Shown here in pieces: positions 24,756-30,980 of a stretch of 64,000 bases of DNA. The DNA comes from an uncultured Bacteroidales bacterium (GTDB lineage Bacteria; Bacteroidota; Bacteroidia; Bacteroidales; P3), in the NCBI GenBank assembly GCA_905233475.1, contig CAJOEN010000004.1, forward strand, positions 1 to 64,000, written 5' to 3'. Below the pieces are notes generated by a model. It ran no database searches. It saw only the letters and a list, made by a program, of their open reading frames with translations, and was not told where the DNA came from. Position numbers and translations under genes: made by a program. Each line of letters opens with the position of its first letter. Position 1 is the stretch's first letter.

Positions 24756-26153
24756 TTATCTTAATAATCTATAATGCTTAAATGCCAAATCAAACATACC
24801 GCATTGGCAGAATTTCTCCTCTCTTGAAAACAAATTCCTACGATTGTTGAAATTATTCCAGTGTGAAAGCAGTCCACAATAAGAATTAAGTGGAGCGTAC
24901 CATTTATAAGACGGCAGTGCAGACAACAATGCCATTTTCCTTCCAATGCGTCCCATGCTATTTCTCGATATATATATTCTATGAGGTTTAAGCCATGCCC
25001 CAAGAAATTCCACACCATGCCAAACGGAAAAAACTTTCAGTTTTCCCTCGTGAAAATCAAGCCGCAACTGTTCTTTCAGTATAGACCTGACTTGTGGCAC
25101 CAACGAAAGTAACCATTCCTTATCGGCACTGACAACATAAAAGTCGTCCACATAGCGACCATAGTGATGAGATTTCAGTTCCCGTTTCATAAATTGGTCA
25201 AGAACATTGAGATAAACATTGCTGAACAATTGAGATGTGAGATTGCCAATGGGCAACCCACATCCATTGGGTGAATGAAACAAACTTTTTTCGCGAGGTA
25301 AATCCGACCAGTCAAAACGACTGCCTTTTACGATACAATCTTTCGTCGGATCCAACATGACAATAACTTCTGTAAGATATTTGATGAAATCCACATCAAT
25401 GACCTCATTCCAAATAACATTCCTGTGGCATGAAACTCGGTGCACAGCCATACTGTCAATTGTGGAGAAACATATATCAAGCAACCGTTTTCTGTCAATG
25501 TGCATAAAATAGCCGCGTATATCCATTTTCATCACATAGCAGGGCACGTTGTAATTGCGGCTTTCCTTCCTTATATGCTTTTCAAGTCGTTTTATTCCAT
25601 AGTGTGTGCCTCTATTTCTGATGCAACTGTAAGTGTCGTGGATAAAAGTACTCTCAAACATAGTGTGTGTATAGTTGTAATATAGGTGGTGCACAATTCG
25701 GTCTCGAAAATCTGCAGCGAACACCTCACGTTTTTTAGGGTCGTTGATTATAAAGCAGGTTGATGGACGTGGAACGTATTTCTGTGCAACCAGTTCGTCG
25801 CACAAGTTGGCAAGGTTTGTTTCCAAATCAGCCTCAAACTTCAACTGATATGGTTTGTTACGCTTATGACGGCGGGCATCAAAATAAGCCTGACGCAGGT
25901 CTGCAAACAATTTGTCCCGCGTCAGGCGATAATTGGAACTTGATGGTAAGTGCTGACGTGCGGAACGCACAGGACGGACACTGAGCCCATAGTTGCGATT
26001 GTTGTTGTTGTTCGTGTTCACGTTGTCCGAATTGAAGTTGAGGTTCCACGCGTTGTTCGGGTTGCTTGTGTTGAGAGAACTCGACCAGTAGTTGCCGTTG
26101 CTGCCGGCGTTGTTGAGTGAACTGTCCCAGTGGTAGCCTGCAGCGGGCAACAC
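24756..26153 (-). CDS. DGR reverse transcriptase (open frame includes the template repeat)
   Basis: The conserved RT occupies residues about 80-465 of the open frame. Its motifs are MKMDIRGYFMHIDRKRLL (first catalytic Asp), GLPIGNLTSQLFSNVYLN with the GxxxSQ motif that marks DGR enzymes, and GRYVDDFYVV (YxDD catalytic pair). No maturase or nuclease domain follows, unlike group II introns. The frame is open from a GTG at 26153 right through the template repeat, and no ATG occurs before the RT core. The true start could be this GTG or a downstream non-ATG codon such as TTG 25910. The enzyme copies template RNA with errors opposite adenines. Confidence 0.92.
   Translation of the reverse strand: MLPAAGYHWDSSLNNAGSNGNYWSSSLNTSNPNNAWNLNFNSDNVNTNNNNNRNYGLSVRPVRSARQHLPSSSNYRLTRDKLFADLRQAYFDARRHKRNKPYQLKFEADLETNLANLCDELVAQKYVPRPSTCFIINDPKKREVFAADFRDRIVHHLYYNYTHTMFESTFIHDTYSCIRNRGTHYGIKRLEKHIRKESRNYNVPCYVMKMDIRGYFMHIDRKRLLDICFSTIDSMAVHRVSCHRNVIWNEVIDVDFIKYLTEVIVMLDPTKDCIVKGSRFDWSDLPREKSLFHSPNGCGLPIGNLTSQLFSNVYLNVLDQFMKRELKSHHYGRYVDDFYVVSADKEWLLSLVPQVRSILKEQLRLDFHEGKLKVFSVWHGVEFLGAWLKPHRIYISRNSMGRIGRKMALLSALPSYKWYAPLNSYCGLLSHWNNFNNRRNLFSREEKFCQCGMFDLAFKHYRLLR
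25960..26150 (-). repeat. DGR template repeat (TR)
   Basis: This 191-bp sequence aligns without gaps to 26974-27164. There are 28 differences, all at positions where the TR has A on the coding strand. About 54 adenines occur in the TR by my count, mostly in AAC codons that can mutate to nearly any residue without making a stop codon. The last 34 bases on the coding-strand 3' side (25960-25993) are identical in both copies, as expected for the initiation-of-homing segment. Confidence 0.95.
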
Positions 26154-26294
26154 TTTTTTTTGCGACAGCGGTCATTATTGTTTCCGAAACGAGAGGAATG
26201 CCTTTGTGCAAGCCAATCGTTCCATCGGTGTTATCCCACTGTGTAGCGGGCCGACCGCCTGTGAACTTACCCTTGCAGTGTTCCGTTTTTGGTG
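26151..26294 (-). other. Spacer between accessory gene and template repeat
   Basis: These 144 bp separate the MutS-like accessory gene from the TR. In DGRs the RNA on the 5' side of the TR is often structured and required for cDNA priming, so this part may belong to the template RNA. An open frame crosses it (GGRPATQWDNTDGTIGLHKG) but I recognise no protein family. A run of eight A's precedes the GTG at 26153. Confidence 0.4.
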
Positions 26295-26834
26295 TTACAA
26301 TATTTCGGAAATCTGTTGTTTTGTTTCTGAAAGAAAAAACATACACTCCATTGGCGAATGTTGCTCTATTGGATACGAAAGAATATCAAGCATTATATCG
26401 GTCAAACGAGGATGTGCATTCCGTTCGGCACGCGACTTTTCTTCCTCGGCTTTTTTCTTCGAGGCCTCGGTCAGCGGCTGATTCCTTTTCCAGTTGCCAA
26501 AGTCGTTTTGCAATGCCTGCACCTCGGCCTCCGGCGGAAAAACAGATGTCTGTAAAACTATATCCACATTATTGTTTTCCAATGTTTTAACACTGGCTCC
26601 TTCGGGCGTGTAACGCTCAATGCTTGTAACCGGAAAGCCCACAAAAGCCACATCCTCTCCACCTTTGAGTAGCCGGTGGGTAATTTTCAATTCCTTGAAA
26701 TACTTTACACTCAACCATGCACTCCAATCGTATGCACGATAAAAAGTGCCCTCGCGAAACAAGTGTATCACCGAACATTGTTCCAATGAAATGCGTTCCT
26801 TTTCCTTTTCCAATATTTCTTTCAATTGTGCCAT
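26295..26834 (-). CDS. DGR accessory protein with a MutS domain I-like fold (MSL type)
   Basis: The 179-residue protein shows LFREGTFYRAYDWSAWL near residue 25 and GGEDVAFVGFPVTSIERYT near 57. This matches the mismatch-binding domain I of MutS (the FYE...D pattern followed by GVP). The rest of MutS, including the ATPase, is absent. A charged helix (about 117-145) follows. DGR surveys describe MutS-like (MSL) accessory genes as an alternative to the Avd protein. Its place between target gene and template supports that role. No Avd-like gene is visible. Confidence 0.7.
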   Translation of the reverse strand: MAQLKEILEKEKERISLEQCSVIHLFREGTFYRAYDWSAWLSVKYFKELKITHRLLKGGEDVAFVGFPVTSIERYTPEGASVKTLENNNVDIVLQTSVFPPEAEVQALQNDFGNWKRNQPLTEASKKKAEEEKSRAERNAHPRLTDIMLDILSYPIEQHSPMECMFFLSETKQQISEIL

Positions 26835-26864
26835 AAATTGTTTGTTTTTTTATATTACTTGTAA

Positions 26865-26927
26865 AAAAAACTGCCGGACGGTGGCTGGATAGCGCACTCC
26901 GTGCGCGCCACCGCCCTACAGTTTTTT
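26865..26927 (-). terminator. Long hairpin with T-run between DGR target gene and accessory gene
   Basis: On the minus strand AAAAAACTG pairs with CAGTTTTTT. A ten-pair stem (GGGCGGTGGC with GCCACCGTCC, one G-T pair) and an inner GCGCAC/GTGCGC hairpin with a 6-nt bulge lie within. It begins 40 nt past the target stop codon and ends in a run of T's. It fits a transcription attenuator separating target from RT. GC-rich hairpins behind variable repeats also aid homing in studied DGRs, so either role or both are possible. Confidence 0.7.
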
Positions 26928-26966
26928 ATGCCCGTGTTTTTCTGCCCGTGGGGGCAAGGGCAAGTT

Positions 26967-29192
26967 CTACCGGGCGGAACGCACAGGACGGACACTGAGC
27001 CCATAGTAGCGACCGTAGTAGTAGTCCGTGCTCACGTCGCCCGAATCGAAGTCGAGGCCCCACGCGCTGCTCGGGCCGCTCGTGCTGAGAGAACTCGACC
27101 AGTAGAAGCCGTAGCTGCCGGCGTCGTAGAGTGAACTGACCCAGCGGCAGCCTGCAGCGGGCAAAAAAATGCTTCTCCCGTTGGAGGACGTGAAACGCCT
27201 ACCGTAAACACCGTTTTGGGTTGTCCATTGGGAAGTGGTGTTGTTTATTAATTCTCGCCATTCCGTGGCGGTCGGTGTTCGGGCACCACCGCCCCAGTTG
27301 GCTGTGGCCGCGTCGTCGCCGGCCTGCAAGGTGGTCAAATTGTCGGTAAAGGTAAAACCGTTATAGCCGTAAGATGAATTGCTGCAGTATTTGGTAAGTG
27401 TATTATAGCTACCGTTGCAGTAGCGGTAGGTGCTCCAATCGTAAACGCTTTTTGGGGATGTCTCGCCCCATGCAAAATAGTCGCCGTAATCCTCCGGAGA
27501 GGTGGCTCCCACATTGCGTGTCGCCCACAAAATTCCGCTCGGCAAACCCAAGTCCACCCAGTCGCCTGTAGAGTTGTCGCGCGGAACCTTCACCGTGTCC
27601 CATGCTAATACGTTGCCGTTGGGGTCGTACAGTTTGGCATACAGCACATCGTTGGTCGTGGGTGTCCATGTTACGGATACCGTGCCGTTTCTGGCAATGC
27701 CGTACTCGGAAGAAAGCTGGCCGTTGGCCTCGAATTTTACTATCTGCGACAAAGGTGTCAGCACTTCCCTGCCAAACAAATAGTTCTGGTCGTAAATATT
27801 GAAACTTACCATGGCACTTTGTCCCTGCGTGGGGCGGCCTGAGGCGTGTACCACTTTCTTGGGCGAGTGGTAAAGTTTGCGGTCTATAACATTCCAATTA
27901 GGCGTGGAATAGTTTTCTATCTCGTAGCCCATAAAACGGAGACTCAGCCCACAACTGGCATCCATGCCCGCATGGCAGTCGAGGCTCCAAGCACAGTAGT
28001 CGTTGCTTTGTCCAAGCATTTGTTCGCGGAAACCTCCGCGTATTGTGTCGGCAATATAGGGCTTGAAATCGAAAGACGGACCGATAATGTCCTCAAGCAT
28101 CACACTAACACGCGGAAAAGCCCAAACCTTGGCCTGCACCTGTCCCTTGCCTTCAACCGTGGGAGGAATCAGTGTAAAAGTGTTGTTGAAAGACGAGATT
28201 GGTGTCATGCCACCAGTCTGTTCCCACTTGAAACCCACACGCCCCTCGGCGTTGTCGGTGAAACCGGCGTATGCGTGCATCTCTCCACTTGCCGAAAGTT
28301 CTACTTGTCGGAACAAGTCGGCCCGCAATGTTACAACTACTGGCACACCGTATACCAGAAACCTTACAGGTATGGGGCGGAAAAGATTGTGCTTCCAAAG
28401 GTCGTAATCCGGATTGTATCGGCAGCTGCCCTGAATGTCGCAGCGAACCTTCTGTTCGGTGGAGAACCTGCCTACAAGCTCAGCTGTTATTTTCAATGCA
28501 CGGCTTCTGTATCTTTCAACGGCATCGCCAACAATCTCTCGCACCGTTCTGCCGCCGAAGTTCATGTTCATCTCGAGGTCGAGGCTGAGGTCGAAGTTCA
28601 TTTTCTCCAACATAACAGTGTAGTTGCTTCCAGAAAACAAAACTGTGTTGTCGTAGTTGGTTTCTGGAAGTCGCCATATTTCTCCGGTAAGGCGGGAGTT
28701 TCCCTTAGCCCTTACATCCAACGCATGGTATTTGCCGTGTTTGTCGATCTGCCATGCCCTCACAGGGTGGAACACCATGCCTGTGGATTTTGATTTAGTC
28801 CTTCCTTCGGAGGCGGTGGAGAGTGTGAAGCCAGAATTGTAGAATATGTCCGTAAGATAGGCTTCGGAAGTGGCAACTCTCATTGTGTTTCCGTTCACAC
28901 TCACCGTTTCAACAAAGCGGTAGTACACTGCGGTGTCGAGGTCTATAGTGATAATGGAGCCCACATGTATGTCCGGCACACTGTCGGTGAACTGTATTTT
29001 ATAGACTCCCGCACTGTCTTCCGACGACAGCAAGTTAGCTCTGTTCCAGTCTATCGGAACGTACTCAGGGTTGATGTTAATCTCGTCGAACTCCCCAAAT
29101 TCTTCGTTGGGGTCGTCCTTTTTGCAACTTGCGGCGAGCACCATCGCCACTGTCAGCATTACGGCCGCTATGGCCTTTGTGTATTTGTGCAT
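26967..29192 (-). CDS. DGR target: variable surface lipoprotein with FISUMP/lectin-like C-terminus
   Basis: The 741-residue protein has a type II signal peptide (LTVAMVLAASC-KKDD). A large beta-rich region (about 40-520) carries an Ig-like segment near 470-550. The C-terminal domain starts at WVDLGLPSGILWATRNVGA and contains YFAWGET and ARTPTATEWREL, the Fibrobacter-major-paralogous (FISUMP) pattern whose fold resembles the C-type-lectin domains used by DGR targets. The variable repeat covers the last 64 codons and ends in YGLSVRPVRSAR. Lipidation suggests display at the cell surface. The ligand is unknown. Confidence 0.88.
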   Translation of the reverse strand: MHKYTKAIAAVMLTVAMVLAASCKKDDPNEEFGEFDEININPEYVPIDWNRANLLSSEDSAGVYKIQFTDSVPDIHVGSIITIDLDTAVYYRFVETVSVNGNTMRVATSEAYLTDIFYNSGFTLSTASEGRTKSKSTGMVFHPVRAWQIDKHGKYHALDVRAKGNSRLTGEIWRLPETNYDNTVLFSGSNYTVMLEKMNFDLSLDLEMNMNFGGRTVREIVGDAVERYRSRALKITAELVGRFSTEQKVRCDIQGSCRYNPDYDLWKHNLFRPIPVRFLVYGVPVVVTLRADLFRQVELSASGEMHAYAGFTDNAEGRVGFKWEQTGGMTPISSFNNTFTLIPPTVEGKGQVQAKVWAFPRVSVMLEDIIGPSFDFKPYIADTIRGGFREQMLGQSNDYCAWSLDCHAGMDASCGLSLRFMGYEIENYSTPNWNVIDRKLYHSPKKVVHASGRPTQGQSAMVSFNIYDQNYLFGREVLTPLSQIVKFEANGQLSSEYGIARNGTVSVTWTPTTNDVLYAKLYDPNGNVLAWDTVKVPRDNSTGDWVDLGLPSGILWATRNVGATSPEDYGDYFAWGETSPKSVYDWSTYRYCNGSYNTLTKYCSNSSYGYNGFTFTDNLTTLQAGDDAATANWGGGARTPTATEWRELINNTTSQWTTQNGVYGRRFTSSNGRSIFLPAAGCRWVSSLYDAGSYGFYWSSSLSTSGPSSAWGLDFDSGDVSTDYYYGRYYGLSVRPVRSAR
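26974..27164 (-). repeat. DGR variable repeat (VR)
   Basis: This 191-bp segment encodes residues about 677-740 of the lipoprotein. Compared with the template it has 28 substitutions, all replacing template A by G or T on the coding strand. They change 23 residues, mainly Asn to Tyr, Asp, Ser, Gly or Phe, plus one silent change. Flanks diverge abruptly at both ends: the upstream coding region has no counterpart near the template. Confidence 0.95.
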
Positions 29193-29355: not shown

Positions 29356-29566
29356 GTGCTGTATAATAAACATCCGTTTGCGCGGACACAATTATACATA
29401 CATGGACGTTCACCCACTGCTTTATCGTGCTACTTTGTGCGAACTTGCGAGATCCGAATGGTCGCAGATAAAACTTCAGTTCAACGTCTTTTAATTATGT
29501 CTGTCCTTTGCCCCCACCCCCTATACGCAAAGGAATTGCCCACAGGGGCTTCGGAACAAAAGACTT

Positions 29567-29606
29567 TGCAAAGATACAAAATATTTTTCAAACGGCCAAA
29601 AGTTTT
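29567..29606 (-). promoter_or_regulatory. Promoter of the DGR operon; right copy of the 40-bp exact repeat
   Basis: Identical over 40 bp to 24545-24584, including TTTTGG (29596-29601) and TATCTTTG (29569-29576) on the minus strand. It would start a transcript about 370 nt upstream of the target lipoprotein gene. Confidence 0.7.
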
Positions 29607-29635
29607 TTATCCGTAAAGGATTCGGCAAAGTTTTT

Positions 29636-29667
29636 TTTGAAAAGACGCTTGATTTTTCGTATTTTTG
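29636..29667 (+). promoter_or_regulatory. Promoter of the M64 peptidase gene
   Basis: TTTG at 29636-29639, a 20-bp spacer and TATTTTTG at 29660-29667 point to transcription starting near 29674, which fixes the start codon at 29703 rather than an earlier in-frame one. Confidence 0.65.
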
Positions 29668-29702
29668 CATATATTTCTGTTGCATTTTTATGTAAGATAT
29701 TT

Positions 29703-30980
29703 ATGACTAAACGAATTGTATATCTGGCACTTGCGTTGGTTCTCATAGTCATTTCAAACAATGTCAGAGCCATCGATTTCCAAAAATATTTCCACGACCG
29801 CACCCTGCGTATCGACTACCTGCGCACTGGCAGTGCCAAAGGCAACAGCATAAGTGTTTCGGCTTTTGTGGCCAAATCGGGCGGCTGGGCAGGCTCGTTG
29901 GTGCACACCATAGACCCGTTCGACTACGGCGCTTTCCGCGTGGTGGTGAAGGAAGACGCCACAGGCACGGAGCTCTACACTCGTACCTATAGCACTCTGT
30001 TTCAAGAATATGCCGCCACCCCCACGGGAGCCGACAGCAGTGCGATGTTTCAAGAAACGGTGCTTGTGCCTTTCCCGAAAGACAAAATAAAAATCTGTTT
30101 CCAGCAACGTGATGAAAGACAGCAGTTTGTAACTCAAGAGGAGGTGCTTTTCGACCCTGCTACCACAGCCGTTGCCACACGTACTGCCAAAAACAAGGCA
30201 CAAAAACTGCACTATTCCGGCGAATCGCATAAAAAACTCGATGTGGTGATTGTGGCCGACGGCTACAGCAAAAAAGAGAAAGGCAAGATTGAAAAGGATT
30301 TCGCCGCCTTTGTGGAGGGTCTGTTCTCGTGCCAGCCTTTCAAACAGCACAAAAACGATGTCAATGTGTGGGGGGTGGCTACGATTTCGGACGGGAGCGG
30401 CGTTTCCAATCCTAAAAAGGGAATAAAACGCAATTCCGCCATAGGGTCGTCATTCAACGTGCTTGGCATACAGCGTTATCTGATGACATACGAGATTTTC
30501 CGTCTGCACGACGCTATCGACGATGCGCCTTACGAACAGATTATTATCATGTCGAACACCGAGGAGTACGGCGGCGGAGCCATATACAATTTCTATGCCG
30601 ATGTGGTTGTGTCGTCGATGTCGGGATTTATCGTTACCCACGAGTTCGGACACACCTTTGCGGGCTTGGCCGACGAATACATCGACGAGGACATTTCCTA
30701 CGAGACTTTGCACAGTACCCAAACCGAGCCTCTGCAACCTAACATCACATCTTTGGTGGATTTCGACAAAAAATGGAAAGACCTTGTGGCAGAGGGAACA
30801 CCCCTACCCACACCGATTTCGGCTCAAAACCTCAACAAAATCGGTGCTTACGAAGGGGGCGGTTACCGCAAACGTGGCATCTACCGTCCTGCCATACGTT
30901 GCATGATGGGTACTGGTGGTGGATTCTGTGCCGTGTGCAAAAGGGCTATCAACGATATGTTCAAGATTTATACGGAATAG
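29703..30980 (+). CDS. Secreted M64-family (IgA-peptidase-like) metallopeptidase
   Basis: The 425-residue protein has an N-terminal signal peptide (YLALALVLIVISNNVRA), an N-terminal beta domain (about 25-160) and a zinc peptidase domain starting at KLDVVIVADGYSKKEK. The active-site helix is VTHEFGHTFAGLADEY (HExxH plus the downstream Asp), the M64 signature. Near the end is CMMGTGGGFCAVCKRAI. Members found in gut Bacteroidota are often called IgA peptidases after one characterised enzyme; the substrate here is unknown. An in-frame extension to 29508 precedes the promoter and is rejected. Confidence 0.85.
   Translation: MTKRIVYLALALVLIVISNNVRAIDFQKYFHDRTLRIDYLRTGSAKGNSISVSAFVAKSGGWAGSLVHTIDPFDYGAFRVVVKEDATGTELYTRTYSTLFQEYAATPTGADSSAMFQETVLVPFPKDKIKICFQQRDERQQFVTQEEVLFDPATTAVATRTAKNKAQKLHYSGESHKKLDVVIVADGYSKKEKGKIEKDFAAFVEGLFSCQPFKQHKNDVNVWGVATISDGSGVSNPKKGIKRNSAIGSSFNVLGIQRYLMTYEIFRLHDAIDDAPYEQIIIMSNTEEYGGGAIYNFYADVVVSSMSGFIVTHEFGHTFAGLADEYIDEDISYETLHSTQTEPLQPNITSLVDFDKKWKDLVAEGTPLPTPISAQNLNKIGAYEGGGYRKRGIYRPAIRCMMGTGGGFCAVCKRAINDMFKIYTE

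Follow-up and report, generated by a model that had tools for sequence, protein, structure and literature searches.

Overlap between the template repeat (TR) and the 5′ or 3′ end of the reverse transcriptase (RT) ORF is a described architecture of DGRs, DiGReF group 3 (PMC3521204). In the text examined, the class rests on annotated ORFs, and evidence on frame conservation, start codons, or RNA is not found. The DGR of Bordetella phage BPP-1 (mtd-avd-TR-brt) combines a target gene carrying the VR, an accessory gene, and a TR located upstream of the RT gene, and its mutagenesis is A specific. A separate spacer lies between its TR and brt; structure in this spacer recruits the RT, and natural brt has no clear RBS (PMC12875486). 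The accessory protein of BPP-1 is Avd, and proteins with MutS domain I (MSL; PF01624) are also known DGR accessories (PMC10053308).

We analyzed a 64,000-nt stretch of DNA (termed the window) from an uncultured gut bacterium of the Bacteroidales, corresponding to positions 1 to 64,000 of contig CAJOEN010000004.1 in assembly GCA_905233475.1. Its minus strand carries an intact DGR, in which the target gene with the VR is followed by an accessory gene, the TR, and the RT gene (Table 1). This layout, the A-specific mutagenesis, and the weak translation signal of the RT resemble BPP-1 (PMC12875486), whereas the inclusion of the TR end in the RT frame, the MutS_I-like accessory, and the presence of a three-way-junction RNA before the TR set the locus apart. 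The TR and the VR (27164 to 26957) differ at 34 of 208 sites and 31 of these 34 mismatches are located at TR adenines, the specificity expected of a DGR, which shows that the element has been active in the past. As in other DGRs, the VR forms the C-terminal end of a C-type-lectin-like protein, with the reservation that the Lcl_C match of the 741-aa target (8.6e-7, 29.7 bits) is under the Pfam cut-off of 34.9 and that its TIGR02145 match is weak. The accessory gene belongs to one of the types found in DGRs (Avd, HRDC, or MSL), its MutS_I match being barely over the cut-off. The RT possesses the DGR-type [IVL]GxxxSQ motif and an intact catalytic motif (LPIGNLTSQ and YVDD), nearly all residues of which are invariant across our alignment. 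The best solved match of the RT profile was 8ub7, which we take to be the BPP-1 bRT. The genome of the bacterium (2.3 Mb) contains one such RT, and the relatives found belong to the Bacteroidales. The terminator hairpin downstream of the target gene likely splits it from a unit composed of the accessory gene, the TR, and the RT gene. On the other side, the target gene adjoins a gene for a Peptidase_M64 (IgA-type) protein (29508 to 30980, plus strand; 2.6e-70).

Table 1. Features of the DGR locus and of the putative RT start region (positions in the window)
Feature	Position	Strand	Remarks
Target gene	26967..29192	-	741 aa; lipoprotein-like N-terminus; Lcl_C/FISUMP-like (C-type-lectin-like) C-terminal domain with VR
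VR	26957..27164	-	Target stop TAG falls within the TR/VR homology
Hairpin and T-run	26855..26925	-	Likely intrinsic terminator after target gene; z -6.1
Accessory gene	26295..26834	-	MutS domain I (DGR "MSL" type); PF01624, 21.4 bits vs cut-off 20.6
Three-way-junction RNA	26150..26270	-	Immediately 5′ of TR; also in 22 relatives; no Rfam match
GTG after eight A's	26151..26153	-	Unlikely RT start; not conserved
TR	25943..26150	-	208 nt; in frame with RT
GTG inside TR	26019..26021	-	Best candidate RT start; context AAC-GTG-AAC-ACG-AAC
ACG at conserved TR column	26013..26015	-	Two codons downstream of GTG 26021
TR-end motif	25947..25955	-	CAGCACTTA; IMH*-like; conserved; CAG replaces VR stop and opens frame
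12-bp hairpin in first RT codons	25888..25927	-	Common to window, L031, L032, L034, L035; candidate 3′ spacer element of template RNA
TTG inside RT helix 1 and hairpin loop	25908..25910	-	Unlikely start; plain Leu position
RT core	24756..25910	-	LPIGNLTSQ and YVDD motifs; RVT_1 9.9e-13

The original prediction held that the RT frame runs without a stop from a GTG at 26153, preceded by eight A's, through the TR into the RT, and that no ATG occurs before the conserved domain; the sequence confirms both points. The frame is open from 26171, next to an upstream stop at 26172 to 26174, down to the RT stop at 24756, and it contains the entire TR, an overlap at the 5′ end of the RT frame as in DiGReF group 3. 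No in-frame ATG precedes the RT core in this open frame. The RT frame is also the one in which the TR corresponds to the VR frame, and the TAG stop of the VR is matched by CAG (25955 to 25953) in the TR. An open TR in this frame is expected because the VR is coding, and its being in frame with the RT is alone worth only ∼1/3; the VR moreover constrains the TR codons, and coding selection for the RT is therefore not measurable within the TR. We rejected the loss of the VR-type stop as a proof of fusion, since out-of-frame loci with their own ATG (L054 and L057 to L059) also have CAA for TAA. The list of candidate starts that came with the prediction needed correction: TTG 25910 falls within the first RT helix and not before the domain, and two GTG codons inside the TR (26021 to 26019 and 25970 to 25968) had gone unlisted.

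We compared the locus with 29 loci from genome and viral contigs and with further whole-genome matches, to which a TR/VR finder was applied. Eleven loci have no ATG in the linker between TR and RT, namely, the window, L031, L032, L034, and L035 (lineage A), L033 and L036 (lineage B), L107, L109, and L110 (lineage C), and L053 (lineage D); L109 was added to this set by hand, and L003 was counted with the linker-ATG loci. The frame from TR to RT was open in all 11 of them and in only 4 of the 21 loci with a linker ATG (Fisher, 1e-5), these counts sharing descent and amounting to about four observations when taken by lineage. The other linker-ATG loci show a stop or a different frame between TR and RT, and the length of the TR-RT linker changes by whole codons only. 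With an RT start after the TR, nothing would require an open frame through the TR, and the open frames thus argue for a start inside the TR. The ordinary Bacteroidales relatives (e.g., L037 to L049, L112, and L113) have the same RT family and TR type, and many share the 5′ RNA and the TR-end motif, but they differ by an ATG located 5 to 14 codons before the RT core (5 to 16 codons ahead of it among all ATG-bearing relatives) and usually by a stop or a different frame in the TR-RT interval. Viral contigs yielded three relatives only, each with its own ATG, and phage and plasmid records yielded only distant RTs. L005, an RT of the window's family, contains one internal TAG and one internal TAA and is apparently decayed or mis-assembled.

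In the RT tree, lineage B is placed beside L038 and L039, two loci with an ATG of their own and a stop behind the TR, and lineages C and D are found in a separate, well-supported part; the base is poorly resolved, deep forks of lineage A included. From these placements, the open-TR-frame state without an ATG probably arose or was lost more than once. The frame across the TR, the conservation of which the original prediction had proposed as a check, is kept in close relatives and in more than one lineage; in many other relatives, stops, a different frame, and an ATG lie between TR and RT, so that the refuting condition stated with the prediction applies in part. As judged from these sequences, the in-frame arrangement belongs to some lineages and is not a general rule of DGRs. 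Compared with group 3 as the DiGReF text examined presents it, the overlap is here kept in frame in several lineages that have no downstream ATG. Second VR-like copies were detected in L031 (10630 to 10818) and L033 (50 to 206), several kilobases from the TR, which makes two or more targets per DGR probable in these loci.

Purifying selection acts on the RT genes of lineages A and B (pN/pS of 0.16 to 0.44, with synonymous sites near saturation), which implies that the enzyme is made somehow. An AF2 model built with 18 aligned relatives gave a pLDDT of <50 for residues 1 to 71, the part encoded by the TR, and a confidently modeled RT starting near residue 72; the TR-encoded tail is probably without a fold in this model.

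We scored each ATG, GTG, and TTG in the open frame for local structure (61-nt MFE) and for upstream bases. One column in the 3′ half of the TR (AAC-ATG-AAC-AAC-AAC) was occupied by ATG in L031, L033, L034, L035, and L036 and by GTG in L032, L107, L109, and L110. ATG or GTG was present there in 9/11 loci without a linker ATG and in 3/21 others (Fisher, 3e-4, for counts that are not independent by descent), the latter three being L048, L113, and L003, which have ATG and own a downstream ATG as well. The two exceptions among the 11 are L053, with neither codon, and the window, with ACG. The codon at this column has an A at -3 and an MFE of -0.5 to -8.0 (-0.5 to -5.7 in lineages A and B), comparable to the values at genuine ATG starts of relatives (0 to -10.6). 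In lineages A and B, no other candidate is less structured (with a tie in L031). For lineage C, the TR GTG is slightly more structured than an ATG in the leader that precedes the TR. Bacteroidales genes seldom begin with GTG, and the GTG of the window stands two codons away from the conserved column. In the window, GTG 26021 has the best context among the candidates, with an unpaired value of 0.69 and an MFE of -3.5. From these comparisons, we somewhat favor initiation of the RT within the 3′ half of the TR, with GTG 26021 as the most likely codon in the window; the actual start codon is one that we infer from the sequences.

A start just after the TR, at a non-ATG codon such as the TTG or TTA of the IMH*-like motif (read QHLP), another near-cognate codon, or TTG 25910, would make the open TR frame a by-product; we regard this as possible but unlikely. 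Six of the seven lineage A and B loci have TTG at the QHLP position, 12 to 14 codons ahead of the RT core and thus within the 5-to-16-codon range of the ATGs of relatives, but the window itself has TTA there. Moreover, this TTG is part of a DNA or RNA motif, YAGCACTTR, that ends the TR in many relatives (as TAGCACTTR in several) and occurs also in loci that do not use it as a start. With TAG, the motif closes the frame in L038; with CAG, it is open in lineages A and B and reads QHL (QPL in L035, where the motif is CAGCCCTTG). The motif can explain the conservation of the linker TTG with no start function required. The TTG contexts show a C at -3 and are more structured than that of the TR codon, and a start after the TR leaves the 11 open TR frames unexplained. 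As for TTG 25910, which the original prediction had offered as a non-ATG start, the remaining loci of lineages A and B have CTN at its column, as befits a plain Leu position, and the codon sits in the loop of the 12-bp hairpin. Translation from it would cut the first RT helix (residues 79 to 94 of the AF2 model) and lose a conserved LTREQ-like segment retained by nearly all relatives that start with ATG, and we rejected it.

The hairpin itself is formed by the inverted repeat GCCTGACGC/GCGTCAGGC, with a near-identical stem sequence throughout lineage A. Compared with synonymous-codon shuffles, it was more stable in the window, L031, and L032 (z of -2.9, -2.7, and -2.0, respectively) and not clearly so in L034 and L035; covariation was seen in 1 of 14 pairs, and synonymous divergence over the hairpin codons was not consistently below that of the rest of the RT. 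These data are only suggestive of a functional RNA element. By analogy, the hairpin may correspond to the spacer structure of BPP-1, now within coding sequence.

Translation of the whole TR from a start located 5′ of it, at GTG 26153 in the window, at an ATG 120 codons before the core in L033 and L036, or at the leader ATG of lineage C, appears decidedly unlikely as a general explanation. The A8-GTG of the window would be an A-rich start site, but relatives have no A run at this place (L031 has an unaligned GTG and L034 a TTG), and L035 has no ATG, GTG, or TTG between the upstream stop and its TR-column ATG, whether before the TR or inside it. In addition, the adjoining 5′ DNA encodes a conserved element (GTAAGTTCACAGGYGGYCGGCCC ... 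GTTGGCTTGC ... GGCATTCC ... CTGACGC) that folds as a three-way junction. Compensatory changes affected 14 of its 25 pairs among eight sequences, and none of 500 shuffles was as good; the alignment fitted to the covariance model gave 23/25 pairs, the independent count being 14/25. The covariance model found 23 matches in 48 sources, 21 with an E value of <1e-3, and in every source with a mapped TR the match sits at its 5′ border (e.g., L031, 4638 to 4762; L033, 4644 to 4761; L034, 1277 to 1404; L035, 4632 to 4763; L037, 2011 to 2138; L039, 1863 to 2002). A search of Rfam gave no match to this RNA, and a search of 295 Bacteroidales genomes with strict filters returned only the window's own copy. 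We propose that the three-way junction is probably the 5′ domain of the template RNA across this DGR family. Among relatives, its length differs in ways that change the frame relative to the TR, which precludes a general use of starts upstream of the TR in the window's lineage. Consequently, the part of the original prediction that gave the RT a TR-encoded N-terminus stands in reduced form: some TR-encoded residues are probable, the frame being kept in relatives, and translation of the full TR from GTG 26153 is not supported, the codon being rejected as a start for this lineage. A frameshift at the A8 run from an upstream ORF (26346 to 25879) was also considered and rejected by inference, as the run is unconserved and the "ORF" overlies the structured RNA.

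Lineage C offers a case for a start 5′ of the TR. Four loci of one genus (ATG at 3692 in L107, 3695 in L108, 3743 in L109, and 3686 in L110) have an ATG leader of ∼30 codons in frame through the TR into the RT, giving ORFs of 464 to 481 aa. The leader (MVNKKKSA.KLH..KECSLSLFSIDDY) joins the TR in frame and free of indels, and L109, which has a 5′-truncated TR, carries a 19-codon deletion at the leader/TR border that leaves the frame intact. On the other hand, DNA conservation extends upstream of the leader ATG in these loci, and the excess of third-position changes (5, 7, and 11) is not significant (p 0.30). Full translation of the TR may occur in lineage C.

That the frame relation is a coincidence inherited by descent, in a decaying element whose RT is hardly or not translated, is highly unlikely: an in-frame TR arises by chance in about 1/3 of cases and weak RT translation would be normal, given that BPP-1 brt lacks a clear RBS (PMC12875486), but the RT is intact with YVDD and a pN/pS of ∼0.25, the adenine-biased TR/VR differences attest past activity, and the same in-frame state is found in several lineages.

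We propose that the RT gene of this Bacteroidales DGR overlaps the TR with its 5′ end. The template RNA would comprise, in order, a structured 5′ domain, the TR, the IMH*-like motif, and a hairpin already within the RT coding sequence. Translation of the RT would start inside the 3′ half of the TR, at GTG 26021 in the window and at ATG or GTG codons of the same AAC-rich, weakly structured stretch in relatives, and the ribosome would pass the IMH*-like motif because the TAG there is CAG. The product would be an RT with a disordered tail of 31 to 37 residues, the first ∼20 of which would be encoded by the TR. Speculatively, RT bound to the template RNA could repress its own translation, or ribosomes and RT could compete for the TR. 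A stronger version, in which template RNA and RT message are by design a single overlapping molecule and the RT, together with the accessory protein, blocks its own translation from the template RNA as an autoregulatory switch recurring in several DGR lineages, strikes us as doubtful.

Both the candidate RT start inside the TR and the 5′ three-way-junction RNA look new; the literature searched, with subscription papers mostly outside it, contained no prior report of either, which is weak evidence of absence. If the RT start does lie in the template, the mutagenic template is also coding and must serve the VR, the reverse transcriptase, and the ribosome together. RT dosage could then be tied to template occupancy, a control point of DGRs without description in the literature examined. 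The 5′ RNA gives concrete access to the 5′ domain of template RNAs in Bacteroidales DGRs, and its covariance model can help to find TRs.
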